Source of the DNA: a virus
Virus record (IMG/VR): IMGVR_UViG_3300042388_000255
Span: 1-25,808 of that record
Reading direction: 5' to 3' (one strand)
DNA: 25,808 bases
The notes beneath the pieces are model-generated. The model saw only the letters and a program-made list of their open reading frames with translations, did not search any database and had not been told where the DNA came from. Position 1 is the first letter of the stretch. Each line of letters starts with the position of its first letter. Positions 10,143 through 25,808 of this stretch are shown in pieces. A program made the translations under genes and the position numbers.

Positions 10143-10253
10143 CAATTCAATTAATGAGGTGACGCAATGATTTCAAGTTTAGTAATGATGGGGGCAGCGG
10201 GGGTAAGTGGGATTTTTGACGCAAGCGCGGGATTCGCGCTGTTCGGGGGGGGA
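10141..10253 (+). repeat. direct repeat, copy 1 (leader and 5' end of adhesin gene)
   Basis: The segment holding the ribosome site (GAGGTGA at 10156-10162) and the first ~29 codons of the adhesin gene is duplicated at 11049-11161. The first 78 bases (10141-10218) are identical in both copies, and about three differences occur in the rest. The duplication carries the translation start and the N-terminal anchor, leaving the body variable. Confidence 0.9.
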
Positions 10254-11048
10254 ACCGCGCAAACCACAACCGGATATACTGACAAATATACCTATGCCAC
10301 TAATACAGTTTCTACAGGTACTCATATTATTGCGAGTTATTCATTAGCCGCGGCCGGAAATGAGACAAAAGGCATATTCTCAGGAAGTTACGCAGCCAAA
10401 TATACTTATAGCACCAACACAGTGGCCCAAGCCCCTTACCTTGGGCTGCGAAGATCAAACCTAGCGGCAGCCGGCAACGCCAGTGTCGGAATTTTCGGCG
10501 GGGGTTATACTGGTACTTTATACGCAATCACCGATAAATACACCTACGGCGGGGATGAAGTCGCACCCGGCACAGCGCTCGGGCTGGCACGATACGGCCT
10601 AGCGGCAGCCGGCAACGCAACCGTCGGAATTTTCGGCGGGGGTTATCCAGTTAGCGGAATCAGAACAACATACACCGACAAATACACCTACAGCGGCGAT
10701 GCGCGAGCACCCGGCACGGCGCTCGGACTGGCGCGGTATGAGCCAGCCGCCACCGGCAACGCCAGTGTCGGCATTTTCGGGGGGGGATATACAGGCAGCA
10801 ACTCCGCTTATGCCGACAAATACACCTACAGCGATAACACCGTCGCACCCGGAACAATACTCGGAGTCGCAACACAGGGTTTAGCCGCCGCCGGCAACGC
10901 AACCGTCGGCGTATTCGGTGGAGGACACGAAAAGCTGAACCGTACCGACATATACACATACAGCGGAGACACGGTGGTGACAGGAACGGTGCTCGGTTTA
11001 GGGCGTCATCTATTGGCTGCCACCTCATCCGCCCCCGGCGGGTTTTAA
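10167..11048 (+). CDS. kelch-like repeat tail adhesin, six repeats
   Basis: A 293-residue protein. The N-terminus (MISSLVMMGAAGVSGIF...FALFGGG, about 29 residues) is followed by six repeats of 40-48 residues built around DKYTYSGDTVAPGTALGLAR and LAAAGNATVGIFGGG, closing with ATSSAPGGF. The GxFGGG ... YxY ... R pattern is kelch-like, so a six-bladed beta propeller is the natural model. Such propellers at fibre tips commonly bind host surface sugars or proteins. The first two repeats are more diverged than the rest. Strong ribosome site GAGGTGA. The gene sits downstream of the fibres and is followed by a shorter paralogue with the same N-terminus and C-terminus. The short hydrophobic N-terminus may be a docking segment rather than a secretion signal. 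Confidence 0.75.
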   Translation: MISSLVMMGAAGVSGIFDASAGFALFGGGTAQTTTGYTDKYTYATNTVSTGTHIIASYSLAAAGNETKGIFSGSYAAKYTYSTNTVAQAPYLGLRRSNLAAAGNASVGIFGGGYTGTLYAITDKYTYGGDEVAPGTALGLARYGLAAAGNATVGIFGGGYPVSGIRTTYTDKYTYSGDARAPGTALGLARYEPAATGNASVGIFGGGYTGSNSAYADKYTYSDNTVAPGTILGVATQGLAAAGNATVGVFGGGHEKLNRTDIYTYSGDTVVTGTVLGLGRHLLAATSSAPGGF

Positions 11049-11161
11049 CGCAATTCAATTAATGAGGTGACGCAATGATTTCAAGTTTAGTAATGATGGG
11101 GGCAGCGGGGGTAAGTGGGATTTTTGCCGCAAGCGCGGGATTTGCGCTGTTCGGGGGAGGA
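11049..11161 (+). repeat. direct repeat, copy 2 (leader and 5' end of second adhesin gene)
   Basis: Second copy of the 10141-10253 segment, beginning immediately after the stop of the first adhesin gene and including the same GAGGTGA ribosome site and the same first 17 codons without change. Near-identity at DNA level points to recent duplication or gene conversion. Confidence 0.9.
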
Positions 11162-11422
11162 GCTTTATCTAATTTAACCACAAGCAAATATATCTACAGT
11201 GATGATGCAACGACAGCAGGCACAAATCTTAATGTAGAAAGATATAACCATGCTGCCGCTGGAAATAGTGTTATTGGTATTTTTGCAGGAGGTCAGTCTG
11301 CAGGCACCGGTGCTACCACAAATAAATATATTTATAGTGATAATGCTAATGTAGTAGGTACAAATCTTAATGTAGGAAGGTATAATCATGCCGCCACCTC
11401 CTCCGTCCCCGGCGGATTCTAA
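11075..11422 (+). CDS. short kelch-like adhesin paralogue, two repeats
   Basis: A 115-residue paralogue of the gene at 10167. The N-terminal 29 residues are the same apart from one substitution (Asp to Ala) and the C-terminus ATSSVPGGF matches ATSSAPGGF, but between them are only two repeats (SKYIYSDDATTAGTNLNVERYNHAAAGN and a similar one). The body is visibly richer in A/T than the first copy, so it was not made simply by deleting blades from it; it looks like a different body between shared ends. Two blades cannot close a propeller alone; three subunits together would give six, matching the paralogue. It could also be a decaying remnant, though the frame is intact. Confidence 0.7.
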   Translation: MISSLVMMGAAGVSGIFAASAGFALFGGGALSNLTTSKYIYSDDATTAGTNLNVERYNHAAAGNSVIGIFAGGQSAGTGATTNKYIYSDNANVVGTNLNVGRYNHAATSSVPGGF

Positions 11423-16537: not shown

Positions 16538-16933
16538 ATGAAATCAGTCACCATTAGCGCGCCTGTCCTGGGCGAAAGAAAAACACGCCAACAAATTGAG
16601 TCGTTATTGGAAGGCGTCAATTTGCCGGTAGAAATTACCGTAACCAATTTATCGGCGCGCCCTTTGGCGATTACCGAGTACGGCATTGATTTACTTAGCA
16701 GTCAAAACACGGCAGGCGCAAGCAAGGCCGTTTCGATCAAGGAAGTGTCTGGCCTGTTCCGGCTGGCACGTAACGCCGAATCTATTGCTGAACTCAATCG
16801 TTATGGCGAGATTATCTCGGTGGCCATTGCCGGTGAAGTCGAGGAAGTTACCGCGGCGAAAGAACCCGAAGAGACCAAGCAGCCTGACACACTCAAGCGC
16901 CGCCTACAAAACAAAGAGGGGAATAGATCATGA
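16538..16933 (+). CDS. hypothetical virion protein between capsid and sheath, 131 aa
   Basis: Starts at ATG 16538 with GGAG at 16526-16529; the frame continues upstream to TTG 16511 inside the hairpin tail, which is not a credible start. The first ~65 residues are beta-like (VTISAPVLGERKTRQQIESLL, LPVEITVTNLSARPLAITEYGI), the middle is Ser/Ala-rich, and the C-terminal 40 residues are highly charged and likely flexible (EEVTAAKEPEETKQPDTLK). It ends in an ATGA overlap with the sheath gene. No family known; position suggests a neck, decoration or sheath-associated protein. Confidence 0.65.
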   Translation: MKSVTISAPVLGERKTRQQIESLLEGVNLPVEITVTNLSARPLAITEYGIDLLSSQNTAGASKAVSIKEVSGLFRLARNAESIAELNRYGEIISVAIAGEVEEVTAAKEPEETKQPDTLKRRLQNKEGNRS

Positions 16934-18582
16934 GTACCGCATTCGTTCGACAATTAGGCGCGGAGTCAGGCGTTCAGCTTAATCCGTTAGTCGATAATTC
17001 TGAAATTCCGACTAACGATAATTCCGATCAGGTTTTCGGCATTATCATGCGCTCCACACGGGGCCGCATTGACAAGCCGTTCGTAGTGGATCGTGGCAAC
17101 GTCATGACCCGCTTAGGCAATGGCCGTGAAGCGGGCGTAGCAAACGATATTAACGCCAACAACGAGGCATGGATTCAAGTCGTTGAAGCCTTGAACAACG
17201 GCGCTTATTCTGCAGTGGTGCAGCGTTTAGTCGGTGATTCCACCGTCAAGTTTGCCGTAGCTACCGTAAGCAGCGATGCGATTAACTTTACCGTGTCTGA
17301 TACGGCTCCCGTTAGCACACATTTGATGTCGATCAAGCATTTAGATTGCTTCAATGATGGCATTACCATTACGTTGCGCGCGGAAGAAAAGAAGGTTGCC
17401 GGTGTTGCAGTGGCGAATGATTACGTTACGCTCAGTCTGCGCGATAACGAGGGAACTTTGCTGTATGAATTCTATGGTTCGCTCAAAGCGGATGCTGTTG
17501 ACGATTACGGCAACACGGCATTCCTTGAGGAAGTCATTGCACGCCAAACAGATGCGGTGATCGTGGATATTCCGCAAACCGACACGCTGGAAATTGCGCC
17601 TACGTCAGATGCGTATGGTTACGATGCCACGAACGGACAGCCTAAATCGGTTACGTCTGCACTGCTGATTTGTTTCGTTGAGGGTAATCCGTATGCCAGC
17701 GGCGCGGTAGTGGACTACATGGGTGCGCGTACCAAGCTGCAAGACACACAATACAACTACGCTTACATCGCTTCCGGCGGCACTAAAACCCCCGCGTTGT
17801 TAGCACAATTGGCGCAATTGGCCTTTGATACCAATCGGCAACTGCGCTTTGATATTCCGGGCGACCTGTCGGTTAGCGCGGCGATTGCATGGGTTGAGCA
17901 ACTCAGCTTTGGGGCAAACAAAACCTCACACCTGTTGCATGCTTTTTGGGCGCCGTTCAAATCCATTGACCCGACCAACATTCATGGCAAGGGCTATATC
18001 GGTACTTCGGCGCTGAATATCGCTTATGCCTGTCTGCGCAATGCCGCAACTAATTCACTGGGCTTTGCGCCGAAAAATTACCCGGTAGCAGGGCGTGAAT
18101 GGCCGGTAAGCCGCCGTGGTATCACGCAGACTTTGACGCCTAGCAATCAAGACCTGAATGCGCTGGCCCGTGCCAAGATTAATCCGGTCGTTTATGAAGT
18201 CTATACCGGTGGCGGACGCACCGTGTTCCGTGATTCCCTGACCTGCGCGTTAGTCGAATCCAGCCTCAAAAAGCTGATTTCGGTTGCAGATATGTCGGCT
18301 TCGGTGGATGACGCCGTAACCCGCTATGGCAAGGATTGTTTGCAATTACCCATGCAGATTGCCATTAAGAAGTTCAAGGATTTCTTGACCACGTATTTTT
18401 CTGACGCGGAGGCTTCGGGCTGGTTAGTGCCAAGCAACGATCCTTCTATGGGCGGCAAGGCGTGGATGTTCGATGTACGGCCTAACGCGGTGCGACCTTA
18501 CGACCGCATGGACGTGAATTATTCGCTGCGTTATGACGGTGCAGTGCGTCAAATCCACGTTACACAAACTTTGGTTAAGTAA
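16930..18582 (+). CDS. contractile tail sheath protein (plain form)
   Basis: A 550-residue protein with the sheath layout: after an N-terminal extension (QLGAESGVQLNPLVDNSEIP), DQVFGIIMRSTRGRIDKPFVV matches the aG..erGP.n.P block at the start of sheath proteins, and NNEAWIQVVEALNNGAYSAVVQRL the NGg...yvvRV block. The C-terminal domain (about 430-550; LQLPMQIAIKKFKDFLTTYF, GWLVPSN, a final strand VNYSLRYDGAVRQIHVTQTL) corresponds to the conserved inner sheath domain that packs on the tail tube. Ribosome site GAGGGG at eight bases from ATG 16930. Sheath subunits stack around the tube and contract to drive it through the envelope. Its paralogue at 18607 is clearly homologous over nearly its whole length. 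Confidence 0.85.
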   Translation: MSTAFVRQLGAESGVQLNPLVDNSEIPTNDNSDQVFGIIMRSTRGRIDKPFVVDRGNVMTRLGNGREAGVANDINANNEAWIQVVEALNNGAYSAVVQRLVGDSTVKFAVATVSSDAINFTVSDTAPVSTHLMSIKHLDCFNDGITITLRAEEKKVAGVAVANDYVTLSLRDNEGTLLYEFYGSLKADAVDDYGNTAFLEEVIARQTDAVIVDIPQTDTLEIAPTSDAYGYDATNGQPKSVTSALLICFVEGNPYASGAVVDYMGARTKLQDTQYNYAYIASGGTKTPALLAQLAQLAFDTNRQLRFDIPGDLSVSAAIAWVEQLSFGANKTSHLLHAFWAPFKSIDPTNIHGKGYIGTSALNIAYACLRNAATNSLGFAPKNYPVAGREWPVSRRGITQTLTPSNQDLNALARAKINPVVYEVYTGGGRTVFRDSLTCALVESSLKKLISVADMSASVDDAVTRYGKDCLQLPMQIAIKKFKDFLTTYFSDAEASGWLVPSNDPSMGGKAWMFDVRPNAVRPYDRMDVNYSLRYDGAVRQIHVTQTLVK

Positions 18583-18606
18583 GAAAAAATCAGAGAGGGT
18601 TAAGCA

Positions 18607-21600
18607 ATGGGTAATCCATTTACGCGGCAATTGGGAAAAGAATCGGGTGTCCAGCTTAACCCACTGGTTGATAACTCTGAAATACCGGTAACAGACACGG
18701 CAGATCAATCCTTCGGGATTGTGCTGCGTAGCACACGCGGGCGCATTGACCGGGCGTTTTCGGTTGATCGAAGCAATGTGGAAACCCGTTTAGGTAATGA
18801 AACCAATCGAGTCATTGGCGCGGATAATGAGGCGGTGATTCAAGTGGTTGAAGCCTTGAACAACGGCGCTTATTCGGCAGTGGTACAGCGTTTAGTCGGT
18901 GACGATTCCGTGGTTAAGTATGCCGTGGCGTCATTCGTCGGCGCGGGCGAAACAGTGATTGAACCTGACCCTGTTGCCCCGGATGCGCATTGGGATAATG
19001 TTGTACTTGCTATGCCGATGGATCAGACCGGTGAGCCTAGTTGGGATGAACCAACAATTACTTCAGGAACGCTGCCGAGCCATCAGAATTGGCAGGCTAT
19101 CGCTTGGAATGGCACTGTGTTCTGTGCAGTAGCTTCCTATTCAAACGTAGCCGCGACATCACCTGACGGTATCACATGGACTCAAAGAACGATGTCGAGT
19201 TCTAAGAATTGGCAGGCTATCGCTTGGAATGGCACTGTGTTCTGTGCAGTAGCTTCCTATTCAGTAGCAGTTACATCGCCTGATGGAATCACATGGACTG
19301 AAAGAACGTTACCGATCTCTCGGAATTGGCAGGCTATCGCTTGGAATGGCACTGTGTTCTGTGTAGTAGCTTCCTATTCAGACATAGCAGTTACATCGCC
19401 CGATGGTATCACATGGACTGAAAGAACGATGTCGAGCCATCACTATTGGCAGGCTATCGCGTGGAACGGTACGGTATTTTGTGCAATAACGTCTGGTTTC
19501 AACGTAGCCGCGACATCGCCTGATGGAATCACATGGACTGAAAGAACGTTACCGATCGCTCAGGAGTGGTACAGTATCGCGGGGAACGGTACGGTATTTT
19601 GCGCGATAGCTTTCAATTCATCCGTGGTCGTGACATCTCCGGATGGTATCACATGGACTCAAAGAACGTTACCGAGCGCTGGGGGTTGGCATGCTATCGC
19701 GGGGAACGGTACATTGTTTTGTGTAGTAGCTTACAGTTCATCCGTGGTCGTGACATCTCCGGATGGTATCACATGGACTCAAAGAACGTTACCGAGCTAT
19801 CTGTCTTGGCATGCTATCGCGGGGAACGGTACATTGTTTTGCACGATAGCTAACAGTACAAACGTAGCCGCCACCATCACTCCCGGTTACGCTTTCACCG
19901 ATTTAAAAGGTCATACGATAACGAACACCGGCGCGGTGATCAGCACAGCGCAAAGTAAGTTCGGCGGCGCGAGTGGGTATTTTGATGGTGATTACGTTGA
20001 AGTAGAAGAGTCGGCTGATTTTGCTTTTGGCACTGACTTGTTTACGATTGAAGGGTGGGCTAGGCCAGCAGGTGCTGGCACTGTAGCAGAAACCAGAACC
20101 TTGCTATCACTCGGTACATACGAAACTGAATCATACCTAGCGATTGAGCACAAAATCAGTGCGCAGGGTGCCTCTAGTTTATGCGCTTCAACTTTCAAGT
20201 CAGACGCTGACCCCTATTGGGATAATGTCGTACTTGCTATTCCGATGGATCAGTCAGGTACGCCTAGTTGGAATGCGCCGACGATTACTCAAATGACGTT
20301 GCTATCTAGCGGAAATTGGCAATCTATCGCATGGAATGGTACTGTTTTCTGCGCGATTGTAAAAAATTCAGCGACGGCTGCTACATCATCTGATGGTGTT
20401 ACATGGACGTTAAGAACGCTGCCAGTTTCGTTAAATTGGGCAAGTATTATATGGAATGGCACGGTATTTTGCGCTGTTGCAATGAGTTCGTCGCAGTCAA
20501 TAGTCTCAACAAACGGAATTGATTGGACAATCGGAACGATGCCAGTTAGTGCGAATTGGTATGACGTAGCATGGAACGGCACGGTGTTTTGCGCAATAGT
20601 CTATGGGCCAACCACAGTCGCAGCTACATCTACAAACGGCATTGTTTGGACACCGCGGACGATGCCAGTAAATGAATATTGGAGCGCCATTGCATCGAAC
20701 GGTTCAATATTTTGCGCAATCATAACTGGGCACAATAAAGCATATACGTCTTCAGACGGTGTTACCTGGACTGCGCAAACACTACCTGCTAGTACAGGGT
20801 GGTCTGATATTGCTTGGAACGGTTCAGTTTTTTGTATTATTCAAGCGAGTGACCTAACGACCGCTGCAACATCTCCTAATGGTATAGCATGGACGGCGAG
20901 AACGCTCCCAGCTGCAGCACGATGGGATTCAATTGCGAGTGCTGGTAGTGTTTTCTGTGCAGTTTCGCATAATACCGCGCCCAATAAAGGTGCAATCTCT
21001 TCGGATAATGGGGTTACATGGACATCGTTTAATTTATTGGGCGCTCAACCTTCATATTGGTCAGTGGCGTCAAACGGTGCATCATTTATGACACTTGCAT
21101 ATAGTTCTGCCATAGCCAATATTATCGCCCCCACCTACGGCTTCACCGACCTAAAAGGCCATACGATAACGAACACCGGCGCGGTGATCAGCACAGCAAA
21201 AAGTAAGTTCGGCGGCGCGAGTGGATATTTCGCTGACGCCTCACGTTGGTTAACAACTTCACATGTCGATTACGCATTTGGTACAGGTGATTTTACCATA
21301 GAAATGTTTGCATATTTCATGACAGTCGCAAACAAATACTTCTTCAGTACAGAAGTCACGAACGGACAATACTTCTATATGGGTCATACGGATGCGGGCG
21401 CATTAATAGTCTATGGTTCTCATATGTTAGACGTTTTGGTCGTTAGTAATATATTACGTGATAGATGGTATCATATTGCTTTCACACGCGCCTCCAATGT
21501 AGTGCGTTTATTCGTAGATGGTGTCGAACGCGCTAATACAACGACCACTTTCAACCTTACGACGCAATCACTTTTCATCGGTGGTACTACTACTGGTCTC

Positions 21601-23373
21601 CTTCCTTCCGGTAGTTGGATGAAAGGTTACATCGACGACCTCCGCATCACCAAAGGCGTTGCGCGTTACACGGCCAACTTTACACCACCGACAAAATCCT
21701 ACCTTACTTCGGCTACACCCACCTACTCAAAAGTCTCGACGGCGGAGGTTGCGTTGAGTGCCGTTGACCCCTGGAAATTCTTTGCCTTACAACGGAACGG
21801 CACTGCGCTAACCCTTGCTGTTGATGGCGTGGCAGCGACGCCACTTACGCTAGCGGTTAATCATGCGTTTTCTGCCAACAAGCCGATTCTGATTGGTGCC
21901 GGCAGTGACGCTACCGGTACAGCAAGCGGCTACTATTCGGGCTATTTGGATGACCTACGTATCACCAAAGGCGTAGCACGCTACGCTTTCCCGTTTGATC
22001 GGCCCACCATTCCATTCTGGCACGCCATTGTTGCACCGCCTGTCGTGGAGGTTGAAGAAGACCCGGAAGGGCCTGCAGACATTACTTTTATCACGGCGGA
22101 AAGCCTGAGCGGCCTCAATGCCTACCTGCTCGCCGTCAAGCATCTTGAGTGCTTCAATGATGGTATTCGGATTGAAATTCACGCGGATGAAAAGCGGGAA
22201 AATGGCAGCAATATCGCCAACGATTACATTACGCTGAATATCCTTGATCGGGATAGCGCACCGTTGTATGCGTTTTACGGCTCCTTGCGGCAAGATGCCG
22301 TGGACGATTACGGACAAACCGCCTTTTTGCCGAATGTGGTGGCCAGTCAAACGGATTTGGTCGAAGTCAACATCCCACAGGCCGGCGCGTTGCAGATTGC
22401 ACCGGAATCATTCGCGTATGGCTATCGCAGTAACGGGCTATTCCGTTCGGTGAAGTCTGGCGTGTTGAATTGTTTTATTGAGGATAATCCGTTTACGGCT
22501 TCTTCGGTCAATTACACGGCGGCATGCGACAAGCTGAAACAATCGCGCCTGCATTACACCTATTTGGCTTCGGGCGGCACGCAAGACTTGGCACTATTGG
22601 CGCAACTGGCGCAACTGGCGTTTGATACCAATCGGCAATTACGCTTTGATGTACCGGGCAATATGACGGTCAATGCCGCACTGGCATGGACTGAGCAATT
22701 AAACTTTAGCTCACGTCCTTATGCCCATTTGCTGCAAGCCTTTTGGGCACCCTTCAAGTCACTGGATTATGCAGGGCGTTACAACAAGGGCTATATCGGC
22801 ACTTCGGCGTTAAATATCGCCTTTGCCTGCTTGCGCAATGCGAAGACGAACCCGCTGGGCTTTGCCATGAAAAACTACCCTATCGCGGGGCGTGAATGGC
22901 CCATTAGCCGCCTTGGTATTGCGCAGACTGTCACGCTATCCGGTAGCGATTTGAATGCGCTGGCACGCGCCAAGATCAATCCGGTGGTGCAAGAGAATTT
23001 CACGGGCGGCGTGCGAACGGTATTCCGGGATTCTCTGACCCAGGCCGATGTTGAGTCGAGTCAAAAGATGCTGATTTCGGTGGTGGATATGTCCACTGCC
23101 ATTGATGCCGCCGTAACCAGTTACGGCAAGGGCTGTCTGCAATTGCCTATGAAAGTGGGCATTGCAAAGCTGCACGACTTTATGGCCGCGTATTTTCTCA
23201 ATGCGGAATCGTCCGGTTGGTTGGTTCCTAGCGAGGAATTAAACGGAAAAGGCTATCGGTTCGATGTGCGGCCTAATGCTAATCTTCCCTATGAACGCAT
23301 GGATGTAACGTATTCGCTCCGTTATGACGGAACCGCTCGCCAGATTCATGTCACCCAAACCCTGAGCAAATAA
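18607..23373 (+). CDS. giant tail sheath paralogue with nested LamG and beta-propeller insert
   Basis: A 1588-residue second sheath protein. Residues 1-111 and 1158-1588 align throughout with the plain sheath at 16930 (shared phrases VQLNPLVDNSEIP, VEALNNGAYSAVVQRLVGD, KHLECFNDGI, SLRYDG.ARQIHVTQTL), so it keeps every sheath part. Between them lie about 1045 extra residues: LamG part 1a (128-146), propeller 1 (147-426, seven repeats around WNGTVFC and SPDGITW Asp boxes), LamG 1b (427-534), a complete second unit 535-1036 (LamG 2a, seven-repeat propeller 554-842, LamG 2b ending DDLRITKGVARYTANF), LamG 1c (1037-1138, ending DDLRITKGVARYAFPF), and an acidic linker (VEVEEDPEGPAD). LamG and Asp-box folds commonly bind glycans. 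Ribosome site GAGAGGG. The insertion site corresponds to a variable loop in the plain form (about residues 106-130), so it probably faces outwards. Incorporation into virions is inferred. Confidence 0.85.
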   Translation: MGNPFTRQLGKESGVQLNPLVDNSEIPVTDTADQSFGIVLRSTRGRIDRAFSVDRSNVETRLGNETNRVIGADNEAVIQVVEALNNGAYSAVVQRLVGDDSVVKYAVASFVGAGETVIEPDPVAPDAHWDNVVLAMPMDQTGEPSWDEPTITSGTLPSHQNWQAIAWNGTVFCAVASYSNVAATSPDGITWTQRTMSSSKNWQAIAWNGTVFCAVASYSVAVTSPDGITWTERTLPISRNWQAIAWNGTVFCVVASYSDIAVTSPDGITWTERTMSSHHYWQAIAWNGTVFCAITSGFNVAATSPDGITWTERTLPIAQEWYSIAGNGTVFCAIAFNSSVVVTSPDGITWTQRTLPSAGGWHAIAGNGTLFCVVAYSSSVVVTSPDGITWTQRTLPSYLSWHAIAGNGTLFCTIANSTNVAATITPGYAFTDLKGHTITNTGAVISTAQSKFGGASGYFDGDYVEVEESADFAFGTDLFTIEGWARPAGAGTVAETRTLLSLGTYETESYLAIEHKISAQGASSLCASTFKSDADPYWDNVVLAIPMDQSGTPSWNAPTITQMTLLSSGNWQSIAWNGTVFCAIVKNSATAATSSDGVTWTLRTLPVSLNWASIIWNGTVFCAVAMSSSQSIVSTNGIDWTIGTMPVSANWYDVAWNGTVFCAIVYGPTTVAATSTNGIVWTPRTMPVNEYWSAIASNGSIFCAIITGHNKAYTSSDGVTWTAQTLPASTGWSDIAWNGSVFCIIQASDLTTAATSPNGIAWTARTLPAAARWDSIASAGSVFCAVSHNTAPNKGAISSDNGVTWTSFNLLGAQPSYWSVASNGASFMTLAYSSAIANIIAPTYGFTDLKGHTITNTGAVISTAKSKFGGASGYFADASRWLTTSHVDYAFGTGDFTIEMFAYFMTVANKYFFSTEVTNGQYFYMGHTDAGALIVYGSHMLDVLVVSNILRDRWYHIAFTRASNVVRLFVDGVERANTTTTFNLTTQSLFIGGTTTGLLPSGSWMKGYIDDLRITKGVARYTANFTPPTKSYLTSATPTYSKVSTAEVALSAVDPWKFFALQRNGTALTLAVDGVAATPLTLAVNHAFSANKPILIGAGSDATGTASGYYSGYLDDLRITKGVARYAFPFDRPTIPFWHAIVAPPVVEVEEDPEGPADITFITAESLSGLNAYLLAVKHLECFNDGIRIEIHADEKRENGSNIANDYITLNILDRDSAPLYAFYGSLRQDAVDDYGQTAFLPNVVASQTDLVEVNIPQAGALQIAPESFAYGYRSNGLFRSVKSGVLNCFIEDNPFTASSVNYTAACDKLKQSRLHYTYLASGGTQDLALLAQLAQLAFDTNRQLRFDVPGNMTVNAALAWTEQLNFSSRPYAHLLQAFWAPFKSLDYAGRYNKGYIGTSALNIAFACLRNAKTNPLGFAMKNYPIAGREWPISRLGIAQTVTLSGSDLNALARAKINPVVQENFTGGVRTVFRDSLTQADVESSQKMLISVVDMSTAIDAAVTSYGKGCLQLPMKVGIAKLHDFMAAYFLNAESSGWLVPSEELNGKGYRFDVRPNANLPYERMDVTYSLRYDGTARQIHVTQTLSK
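19087..19860 (+). repeat. tandem 117-120 bp repeats encoding propeller 1 blades
   Basis: Seven repeats, one per blade. A 57-base block at 19087-19143 is identical at 19207-19263 and differs by a single base at 19324-19380. Another 57-base block is identical at 19621-19677 and 19741-19797. Such DNA-level identity over short units indicates recent unit duplication or gene conversion. Propeller 2 (about 20266-21132) has the same protein pattern but no comparable DNA identity. Confidence 0.92.
19912..19976 (+). repeat. LamG direct repeat, matched at 21160-21224
   Basis: Thirty-eight bases at 19912-19949 are identical to 21160-21197, and after two differing bases a further 25 bases (19952-19976 and 21200-21224) are identical. 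The repeat encodes HTITNTGAVISTA and SKFGGAS, the start of the LamG core in both modules, and lies about 1.25 kb apart in the same gene. It is a ready substrate for homologous recombination that could delete or duplicate a module. Confidence 0.9.
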
Positions 23374-23397
23374 CGTCTTTCAATGAAAGGAAATACC

Positions 23398-24471
23398 ATG
23401 AATTTAACTGAACTGTTGCGCGATGCCTTGCGCCCCAAGGTCGAACTGGCCCCCGCGTTTGATTCCGCTGATGCAGCCGAAGGCGAACCCGCCAATTATG
23501 TCGAACAAGATATTGCCCTCAAGGCGCTGTCTGCCGTGCATGAATGGGCCATGCGTGATGATTTGGACGTGGGCGAGTCGTTCACGGATCGCCTGTTGAT
23601 GTTGATGGTCGGCGTTGCCGATGAGAATAAAGACGGTGAAATTTCCGAAGACGAACAAGCGTTGATCGAGATTGCCCTGAATGCCGTGTTTGATTACATG
23701 GTAGAGAAAGGCGTGCCGGAAGATGATGCCGGCGCATTGCTGAACGATTGGGACGCAGACGCAGGTGATCGTGTACGCGAATTGCTCAATACTGCATTGT
23801 CGGATGATGATGATGAGGCCATGTCTGATATTGACGGTTTCATCTTCGGTGCAGAGGCACAATCTTCGCTATTCGATTCCGCCAAGCAGGAAGACGAAGA
23901 TGAAGACGATGATGAGGATGATGATGACGAGGATGACCCTGACGGCGAAAAAGAATGGGCCAACATGCCGGAAGACGAGGACGAGGACAAAGCCTTAGAT
24001 GGTGATTTCCGTGGACATCCTTTCCGCGGCAATCAATACCGCAAGGCTAGCCGCTCTTCGGGCGCTGCCGTTAGTGCATCATCGAAAGCGAAGAAAGCCG
24101 AAAAGCATGGTAGCAAGTCTGAGCAGAAAAAAGCCCACAAAGCGGCTTATCATGCGCACGCTTCCGCCGCTAGCCAAGTGCATTCCAAAGGTGCGCGCAA
24201 GTATCACCGCAAAATGGCGAAGCTGCACGGCAAGAAAGCAGGCATGGACAAGGTTACGTTGGATTCCATTGCTTTTGATGCGACCTACAAGAAACGCATT
24301 GTTTTCCGCGCCGGCAAAAAAATCAGAGTCAACAAACGGGTGTCTGGCACGGTGCGCCGTACCGCAAAACAAAAGCAGGCGACCCGAAAAGCCTCTATGA
24401 AATCGCATAATGCCGCGGCAATGATGAAGCGCGCCAAGTCTATGCGCATGCGCCGCAAAGCAGGTTTCTAA
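23398..24471 (+). CDS. EF-hand, acidic-tract and basic-tail head protein candidate
   Basis: A 357-residue protein from ATG 23398 (AAAGGA at 23386-23391, partly within a small hairpin CTTTC-AAT-GAAAG). Residues 75-86 are a textbook EF-hand loop (DENKDGEISEDE: Asp75, Asn77, Asp79, Gly80, Ile82, Glu86). Residues about 136-198 are acidic, including a long Asp/Glu run, then GHPFRGNQYRK (207-216), a motif common in phage head-associated proteins. Residues about 217-357 are Lys/Arg/His/Ala-rich and histone-like. FDSA occurs at 21 and 159, and LDS at 289, as in the capsid and protease. A plausible model is a scaffold or inner-head protein whose basic C-terminal part meets DNA after processing; this is inferred. 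A terminator follows. Confidence 0.75.
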   Translation: MNLTELLRDALRPKVELAPAFDSADAAEGEPANYVEQDIALKALSAVHEWAMRDDLDVGESFTDRLLMLMVGVADENKDGEISEDEQALIEIALNAVFDYMVEKGVPEDDAGALLNDWDADAGDRVRELLNTALSDDDDEAMSDIDGFIFGAEAQSSLFDSAKQEDEDEDDDEDDDDEDDPDGEKEWANMPEDEDEDKALDGDFRGHPFRGNQYRKASRSSGAAVSASSKAKKAEKHGSKSEQKKAHKAAYHAHASAASQVHSKGARKYHRKMAKLHGKKAGMDKVTLDSIAFDATYKKRIVFRAGKKIRVNKRVSGTVRRTAKQKQATRKASMKSHNAAAMMKRAKSMRMRRKAGF

Positions 24472-24492
24472 CCCCCGCTGCACCTCAGCAAG

Positions 24493-24518
24493 CGCCGCCA
24501 TTGTGCGGCGTTTTTTTT
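24493..24518 (+). terminator. intrinsic terminator
   Basis: CGCCGC (24493-24498) and GCGGCG (24505-24510) form a 6-bp GC stem with a six-base loop, followed by eight T (24511-24518). Only 14 bases separate it from the next start codon and no promoter box fits between them, so the next gene must rely on read-through or on an undetected promoter inside the upstream gene. Confidence 0.88.
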
Positions 24519-24532
24519 GATTAGGAAATGGC

Positions 24533-25315
24533 ATGGCGAATAACCTAACGTCGCAATGGGGCACCCTTTCCCCGCACCTTATTGCCGACTTTTTTCAGGT
24601 GGACAATGATAATGTACCCATAGGCAATACCCATGTACTTGCGCCGCTGACCGACGCTAGCATGGAGATTGCTTTGAATTGGCAATCGCCGTTTGAGAAT
24701 TCCGGCGCGGAAACCAAGGCCCCGGCGTTAATGGCGATGCTGCAATCGGGATCGCTGGAACCGTTGATGGCAGGCGTCAAGATGTTGTTTGCCGGTGGCA
24801 ATGGCGAGATGAGCGCCGCGGATGCAAAGGCTAGCCGTGACCATGAAAACAGCCTACTGAGTAAATTTGCGGGTAGGTCTGGCATGACCAAGCTGAACTC
24901 GACGCAAGTGTTTACGGGCATGCCGCCGATTAAAATTCAGGTAACGGCACTATTCCGGGCGTGGCGTGACCCTGTTACTGAGGTGGAAGTACCGTATGAC
25001 CAGTTGATGCAATGGGCATTGCCGGAAGAAATCTCACTCGACGGCACGCCATTGAACCAGGTGGTCGGGGCGGCGAATGGGCAAAAAATCGGCGTGGTTG
25101 AATTGTTGATGCCGTCGAAAACCCCGGTCAAGATTGCGATGCGCTACAAGAATCGGATGTACGGGCCACTGGTGATCGAATCCATTACTAACCCGCTGGC
25201 CTCTCCCATCGACCATAAAGGCAACTTTACTGAAATGTTAGTGCCGATGACGCTCTGCACACTGACCGCGCTGGATCGCAGGGATTGGACGAATACGCGC
25301 AAACAGGCCATGTGA
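24533..25315 (+). CDS. putative tail tube, tube-initiator or baseplate protein
   Basis: A 260-residue protein from ATG 24533 (AGGAA at 24523-24527; the ATG five bases earlier leads to an early stop). The sequence is beta-rich at both ends (HVLAPLTDASMEIALNWQSPF; MPPIKIQVTALFRAWRDP) with a late YGPLVIESITNPLASPIDHKGNF followed by VPMTLCTLTALDRRDW. That end recalls P2 gpU-like tail proteins (fgpwvIesi...G....f.l.L.r.d), a fold shared by tube, terminator and tube-initiator proteins. Position after the sheath genes also fits a tube or tube-initiating protein, which is otherwise missing from the window. Exact role unproven. Confidence 0.6.
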   Translation: MANNLTSQWGTLSPHLIADFFQVDNDNVPIGNTHVLAPLTDASMEIALNWQSPFENSGAETKAPALMAMLQSGSLEPLMAGVKMLFAGGNGEMSAADAKASRDHENSLLSKFAGRSGMTKLNSTQVFTGMPPIKIQVTALFRAWRDPVTEVEVPYDQLMQWALPEEISLDGTPLNQVVGAANGQKIGVVELLMPSKTPVKIAMRYKNRMYGPLVIESITNPLASPIDHKGNFTEMLVPMTLCTLTALDRRDWTNTRKQAM

Positions 25316-25321
25316 CAAACA

Positions 25322-25365
25322 CGGAAAGCATGCACCAATTAGGGGGCGCTGTTGCGCCATGATAG
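25322..25365 (+). promoter_or_regulatory. putative late promoter, weak copy 6
   Basis: CGGAAAGCA at 25322-25330 matches the box imperfectly, but the -10-like CATGAT at 25358-25363 lies at the exact common spacing and is followed by AG as in copies 2 and 4. The spacer contains a small hairpin (GGCGC-TGTT-GCGCC, 25345-25358). It would serve the gene at 25456 with a leader of about 86 bases. Confidence 0.35.
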
Positions 25366-25455
25366 CGGCTTGTTGCGGCTAGGCGCATGCCACTGGAAAT
25401 GATCCCGCTTCCATGCCGTAACCCCCTATATTTGCGGGTAAAAGAGGCTTCAAAC

Positions 25456-25808
25456 ATGATTCACTTTCCTGTACTGCGCACCAAGATCGCCACGATTACG
25501 CTGCGCGAAATTCCCATGATTGACGCTATTCGCATTGCAGGTATGCCGGTTCAAAACGACGAATCTGCCGTTACCGCTTTTTTGCGGGCGGTGGTGGAAT
25601 CGGCAACGGGCCTGCCGGATGATGTGTTGGACTGGACGGTGGAATATCGCACGTTGGCGGTATGTCATTATTTGGCGAGTGTGCTACCGGGCGGGCCGGA
25701 TTTTACGCTGGTGAACGGCGCTGCGCGTTACTCGGATTATCTGGACGGGGCTATTGATGCCATTCCCGCCAGTATCAAATTGGGAAAGGTAAGTGGTGAT
25801 ACGTGGAA
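25456..25808 (+). CDS. truncated gene, possible baseplate or tail-assembly protein
   Basis: ATG 25456 with GAGG at 25444-25447 at eight-base spacing; the frame is open for 117 codons to the window end. The N-terminus reads MIHFPVLRTKIATITLREIP, then MIDAIRIAGMPVQNDESAVTAFLRAVVESATGLPDDVLDWTV. An opening beta strand ending TLREI followed by helices is typical of T4 gp26/gp51-like baseplate-assembly and tail-chaperone proteins, but the match is loose. It lies behind a weak putative promoter and after the tail genes, consistent with the next tail-assembly operon. The C-terminus is missing, so no firm call. Confidence 0.6.
   Translation, partial: MIHFPVLRTKIATITLREIPMIDAIRIAGMPVQNDESAVTAFLRAVVESATGLPDDVLDWTVEYRTLAVCHYLASVLPGGPDFTLVNGAARYSDYLDGAIDAIPASIKLGKVSGDTW

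Follow-up and report, generated by a model that had tools for sequence, protein, structure and literature searches.

A second tail-sheath gene in a phage contig carries two seven-bladed propellers, one of them homogenised at the DNA level in short tracts

We analyzed a window of 25,808 bases, an IMG/VR virus record, in which the second of two tail-sheath genes encodes two seven-bladed propellers. Propeller 1 is homogenised at the DNA level, whereas propeller 2 is at synonymous saturation, and comparison of the blades of propeller 1 showed that these older blades are patched with tracts, tens of bases long, that were copied recently. As an explanation of the whole, we consider it probable, on balance, that the phage carries a decorated second sheath whose LamG-set propellers are shaped by tract-wise recombination among blades together with selection on one face.

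The two sheath genes and their parts are encoded on the plus strand. The plain sheath gene 1 (16930-18582, 550 aa) matches the phrog_1036 sheath profile over its whole length (residues 2-550, E 1.1e-126). The insert-bearing gene 2 (18607-23373, 1588 aa, E 1.6e-116) matches the same profile in two ordered parts, residues 6-112 and 1160-1588, flanking an inserted segment of about 1,047 aa (18943-22083) that splits the sheath domain, with profile positions 106 and 110 adjacent across the insert; both propellers thus lie within the single ORF 18607-23373. In a tree that represented gene 2 by its C-terminal part only, the two genes were sisters (100/100), with a branch length of 0.68 for the decorated gene 2 versus 0.22 for gene 1. 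The closest annotated phage was Xanthomonas phage Rb1 (60% identity for gene 1), and none of 43 other sheath loci had a propeller or, within the DNA fetched, a second sheath ORF. As shown by these profile and tree comparisons, the sheath gene was duplicated within the lineage of the window's phage, one copy gaining the insert, and the "tail surface protein" of the initial annotation can be made precise as a second tail-sheath paralog. Taken jointly with the blade-recombination mechanism, gene 2 would quite probably encode a second sheath subunit that has undergone neofunctionalisation and now displays two lectin-like propellers, each with seven blades and each within LamG. About a dozen phrog_1036 relatives have only a small insert (~25-60 aa) at the corresponding site, which seems tolerant of insertion; in eight relatives (L010, L011, L012, L013, L018, L025, L037 and L043), a Gly/Val-rich insert of the GGxGY...VGGxGTGA type was observed at sheath residues ~115-185.

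Propeller 1 (A; 19063-19887) consists of seven blades of ~120 nt, with W at 19090, 19210, 19327, 19447, 19567, 19687, and 19807. Propeller 2 (B; 20290-21135) consists of seven diverged blades, with W at 20317, 20437, 20557, 20680, 20800, and 20923 and blade 7 starting from 21058. In the AlphaFold2 models, both propellers form a closed ring of seven blades with four strands each, and for propeller 1 the pLDDT was about 98 over most of the propeller, with a pTM of 0.84. The propeller model aligned with 2z2o over 279 residues (VIA-align Z 32.9, rmsd 2.2), and the nearest solved folds were virginiamycin B lyase and YCF48, while a sequence search of the solved structures gave no convincing match (best E 0.0046). 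The sequence also matched DUF6242 (PF19755) above the cut-off, and the nearest predicted viral structure was a DUF6242 phage protein with 50% identity. The Asp-box motif SxDxGxTW is fitted exactly by one blade only (B6, SSDNGVTW), and most of the other blades carry SxDGxTW, which is one residue shorter. Elsewhere in the window, the adjacent ORFs 10167-11048 and 11075-11422 share almost the same first 29 residues (MISSLVMMGAAGVSGIF...) and contain repeats of 144-nt period (10460-10799) around FGGGY motifs; they are possibly a second repeat-rich, propeller-like protein pair.

Each propeller appears to be nested within a LamG fold, after its first strand, as judged from the flanking residues and their relatives. 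The first strand of LamG-1 (DAHWDNVVLAMPMDQ, 18979-19053) forms the 5' flank of propeller 1, which is followed by a LamG-1 segment (19888-19982) that is 91.6% identical to 21136-21230. Similarly, the first strand of LamG-2 (20206-20280) forms the 5' flank of propeller 2, and the remainder of LamG-2 (21136-21694) was assigned to Laminin_G_3 (PF13385; E 2.3e-17, best over residues 882-1016, 64 bits versus a cut-off of 27.6). In 38 phage LamG relatives with no propeller, the strand DPxxxxVSLLLHMDG is followed by FTDSS...ISTAQSKFGG within about ten residues. In both modules of the window, the propeller occupies the very point where the relatives' strand continues directly (F(T)D...SKFGG), and the MAFFT alignment split the LamG rows of the relatives around the propeller. 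In the AlphaFold2 model of the module, the first LamG strand had low confidence, and the propellers were confident. Furthermore, module 2 seems to split LamG-1 in turn, since a second LamG C-terminal half lies after module 2 (21730-22020); this is likely the C-terminal half of LamG-1, to judge from the alignment of the two C halves and from a 45-nt repeat, GY(I/L)DDLRITKGVARY, at 21625 and 21940. Between modules 1 and 2, the synonymous differences in the LamG flanks were 3/14 (5' strand) and 4/23 (19888-19962), against a synonymous-difference fraction of 0.63 between the blades of the two propellers.

The DNA of propeller 1 contains long identical blocks. The initial annotation had reported 57-base blocks, identical or different by one base, at 19087-19860, and such blocks were indeed present, but confined to blades 1-3: the block in blade 1 (19086-19142) matches that in blade 2 (19206-19262) exactly, the block in blade 3 (19323-19379) is one base off, and blades 4-7 match it at about 70-80%. 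Blades 5 and 6 share a separate exact block of 61 nt, the longest exact repeat in the array, with one copy running from blade 5 to the start of blade 6 (19617-19677) and the second copy in blade 6 (19737-19797). In propeller 2, which encodes the same seven-blade pattern in varied DNA as had been described, no exact internal repeat >20 nt was found. We compared same-amino-acid codon pairs between blades with a null in which synonymous codons were drawn from the codon usage of the window. The synonymous-difference fraction of propeller 1 was 0.334 (33.4%), far below the null of 0.643 +/- 0.029 (z -10.7; minimum 0.556 in 500 simulations), whereas that of propeller 2 was 0.612 (61.2%), with no departure from its null of 0.647 (sd 3.2%, z -1.1). 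The divergence among blades is therefore not uniform across the two propellers. The mean amino-acid identity between blades was 0.67 in propeller 1 and 0.43 in propeller 2, and the closest blades in propeller 1 were mostly neighbours. The mean synonymous difference of 0.33 implies that the array of propeller 1, taken over all its blades, is not of very recent origin.

The homogenisation is distributed tract by tract. Over the first 19 codons, identity reaches 98-100% among blades 1-3, with blades 4-6 at 69-80%, while over the remainder of the blade the closest pairs are instead blades 2 and 4 (0.89) and blades 5 and 6 (0.91). Since the front and back halves group differently, the array is a tract-wise mosaic and not the product of a single fresh amplification. 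Indeed, a PHI-like permutation on 28 informative sites in six blades showed that compatibility was higher between neighbouring sites than between sites far apart (k=3, p 0.0005), and the synonymous difference was uneven along the blade, with 0/21 in some columns and 12-17/21 in others. Such mosaics are as expected from conversion or unequal exchange, which they support, and the data fit gene conversion and repeated small unequal crossovers alike. The propeller-2 blade closest to most propeller-1 blades was blade 1 (0.60-0.68), and a spread of the blade-1 tract to blades 2 and 3 would agree with this closeness. Near-identical tracts were also observed in the two sheath genes, at 17167-17241 and 18832-18906 (4/24 synonymous differences), directly before the insertion site and with surroundings that are not near-identical; this is perhaps another converted tract.

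The residual differences in propeller 1 concentrate in the loops of one predicted face. In propellers, the b-c and d-a loops lie together on the face opposite to that of the a-b and c-d loops, and the faces were assigned here from this topology, not from model coordinates. The b-c and d-a loops, inferred to form the top face, gave a pN of 0.47 and a pS of 0.18, and the a-b and c-d loops of the bottom face gave a pN of 0.12 and a pS of 0.69; as the blade pairs are non-independent, this excess of pN over pS supports selection as an indication and not as a formal likelihood test. Furthermore, the columns defined as most variable across the family exceeded random columns in propeller 1 (p 0.0007, column permutation), and the family entropy was 2.9 bits on the first (b-c/d-a) face versus 1.4 on the second. 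A loose end is the nearly fixed third base of the variable loop codons of propeller 1, in which bases 1-2 vary (0.15 vs 0.61; column-permutation p 0.04 for the third base). Within 19087-19860, the codons before each W and in the b-c loop show the patterns nnT nnG nnT and nnC nnT nnC, and this fixation was absent from the other propellers tested.

Several other explanations of the homogenised blades were considered. Propeller 1 could have been re-grown from one or two blades in one fresh amplification and then altered by point mutation without exchange; its mean blade identity of 67% agrees with the >60% pairwise blade identity by which recently amplified propellers have been classed (PMC9218822), a class into which propeller 2 does not fall, and its closest blades are mostly neighbours. 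However, neither the mosaicism of the half-blades and the pattern of site incompatibility nor the uneven synonymous difference along the blade suits this account, and we regard it as unlikely. That the blades are alike through ordinary conservation, that is, protein constraint or narrow codon usage, is barely conceivable: the framework residues are conserved, but with codons drawn from the usage of the window or from that of the propeller itself, the simulations gave 0.58-0.64 synonymous differences and never <0.487 in 500 runs, and propeller 2 is saturated with the same pattern. Plain coding constraint was thus rejected by the codon-usage simulation. Collapse or copying of similar blades by short-read assembly deserves mention, since the repeats sit in a metagenome contig. 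An overlapping IMG/VR contig (L008), the separate record of which suggests a different assembly, is nevertheless 100% identical over 17944-25808 of the window (7,865 bases), including the whole array, and the longest exact repeat of 61 nt is shorter than ordinary short reads. Together with the intact open frame of 1,588 codons, these observations make an assembly artefact, which the initial annotation had named as a possible refutation, highly improbable.

The blade variation could also have come from a process that mutates the loop codons of each near-identical blade in a targeted manner; a diversity-generating retroelement encoded at another place in the genome would be one example. The near-fixed third bases, found only in propeller 1 among those tested, would suit such a process, as would the reverse transcriptase and the template and variable repeats with A-specific mismatches in three sheath relatives. 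In these phages (L305:10477-11152, L306:15811-16459, and L307:1313-2109), the repeat pairs are 117-130 nt long and differ by 9-11 mismatches, all on template adenines, and the variable repeat of L305 ends an 857-aa gene. On the other hand, the scanned ORFs gave no match to a reverse transcriptase family, nor did the L008 record (the phage genome is incomplete), and no template-like blade copy was present outside the array in the available DNA. In addition, the framework adenines in the same stretch are invariant, the p of 0.04 for the third base is weak, and the variable repeat of the relative on the L018 contig ends a different gene, the one of 857 aa. The absence of a reverse transcriptase in the initial annotation thus held for the ~28.7 kb available, but not for the three sheath relatives, which have one with a clean diversity-generating retroelement. 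We consider this route very unlikely here, and a retroelement is not needed to explain the blade variation in propeller 1.

For the wider propeller family, a blade-pattern search recovered 79 viral and 42 bacterial loci, and by low synonymous difference propeller 1 ranked 16th of 137 related propellers, which include some near-copy contigs, while propeller 2 was ordinary. The most homogenised propeller had a synonymous difference of 0.13; this array (L104:2-1708) has about ten to eleven blades and an exact run of 117 nt, and is a candidate for a recent change in blade number. Seven was the usual detected blade count (93 of 150 arrays, in which diverged blades can escape detection), as well as the count in all 12 full-length single-propeller alleles hosted by Ig-like domains. 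Instability of the blade number was accordingly rejected for the propeller family, and the fast change in blade number proposed in the initial annotation found no support.

Exchange of propeller tracts was visible in related phage genes. Among the Ig-hosted genes L261-L277, some pairs have 95-99% identical flanks and differing propeller tracts. L262 and L268, with seven blades each, share about 98% identity to either side of a stretch over blades 1-3 that is 47-78% identical in most 40-base steps, and in L261 and L268 (flanks 95% and 91%), the positional correspondence is mostly lost, with same-position blades at 0.73 and others at 0.69. Similarly, L078 and L100 have flanks at 85% and 93.5% and unrelated propellers (0.54). 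A strict positional match of the blades is kept in L115/L118, L156/L157, and L106/L108, so that exchange is not universal. For the tracts replaced in Ig-hosted alleles, no exact donor was found within the same gene, so that they may have entered from other phages instead of being copied between blades. By eye, from the flanks and with no profile, the same type of propeller seemed to be inserted in an Ig-like domain in one gene set (L077, L098, L106, and L108) and beside tail-collar-like sequence in another (L081, L083, L086, L145, and L164). For the propeller gene of the window itself, a search for allelic variants with the WDN/PMDQ pattern recovered only L008. The earlier proposal that propeller 1 is actively amplified or converted is thus upheld as to conversion or recombination, by the mosaics and by the replaced tracts of the relatives; as to present-day activity, this sole second copy is identical.

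In the mechanism that we propose, blade-to-blade recombination, by gene conversion or by paired unequal exchanges during replication, would copy framework tracts, keeping the count at seven and re-sorting the top-face loops, in which selection would favor amino-acid change. The top face would bind a putative host surface ligand, and the insert would probably sit outside the tail. The propeller would in addition act as a replaceable cassette, because the flanks are similar while the propellers differ, both between the modules of the window and between related phage genes. Repeat-driven diversification, as initially suggested, is thereby retained with respect to the homogenised blades, the one-face variation with pN > pS, and the tract replacement in relatives, but without a rapid change in count. 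We suggest more tentatively, as a possibility short of an expectation, that many tailed phages carry an RT-independent seven-bladed cassette of this kind, set in tail domains such as LamG or Ig-like ones and here borne by a sheath subunit, with tract-wise blade recombination at a fixed count, selection on the top face, and whole swaps via conserved flanks. If true, tailed phages could reach new binding surfaces without a dedicated enzyme, by recombining repeats alone, and the fold would stay intact because the blade count is held at seven. With binders on a sheath subunit, they could also be distributed over the length of a contractile tail. As a natural series of alleles, L261-L277 open the idea to a direct test.

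A literature search, which covered a minority of the subscription journals, turned up no description of a propeller inserted into a sheath protein. The phrog_1036 sheath proteins, such as that of Xanthomonas phage Rb1, are like gene 1 in family, and their locus also adjoins the major capsid gene, but they differ in having a single sheath gene and no propeller. The seven-bladed propellers of the DUF6242 and Asp-box-like type, known from phages and bacteria, resemble those of the window in the family match and in fold, but the window's motif is mostly SxDGxTW and its propellers appear to lie within the LamG of a sheath protein. Recently amplified beta-propellers are already known across families, Asp-box among them, with viruses among their sources, and Pereira and Lupas (2022) described high internal blade identity, with amplification and differentiation visible in the DNA (PMC9218822). 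Their stress is on amplification from single blades, and the word "phage" is absent from their text, whereas here we find a short-tract mosaic in an older array, a blade number that holds at seven, and propellers replaced as cassettes while their flanks are conserved. In the HNWD and other WD40 recognition genes of Podospora, repeats under concerted evolution and rearrangement carry the recognition specificity (PMC2873952); these are fungal WD40 repeats with frequent loss and gain, in contrast to phage blades of another motif that keep the number of seven and are known from contigs, not from populations. The array looks like a recombination-based means of altering a binding surface. Other propeller proteins had already revealed the outline of such a process, and what is new here is the display on a sheath, the apparent nesting of the cassette, and the swapping of propellers tract by tract.
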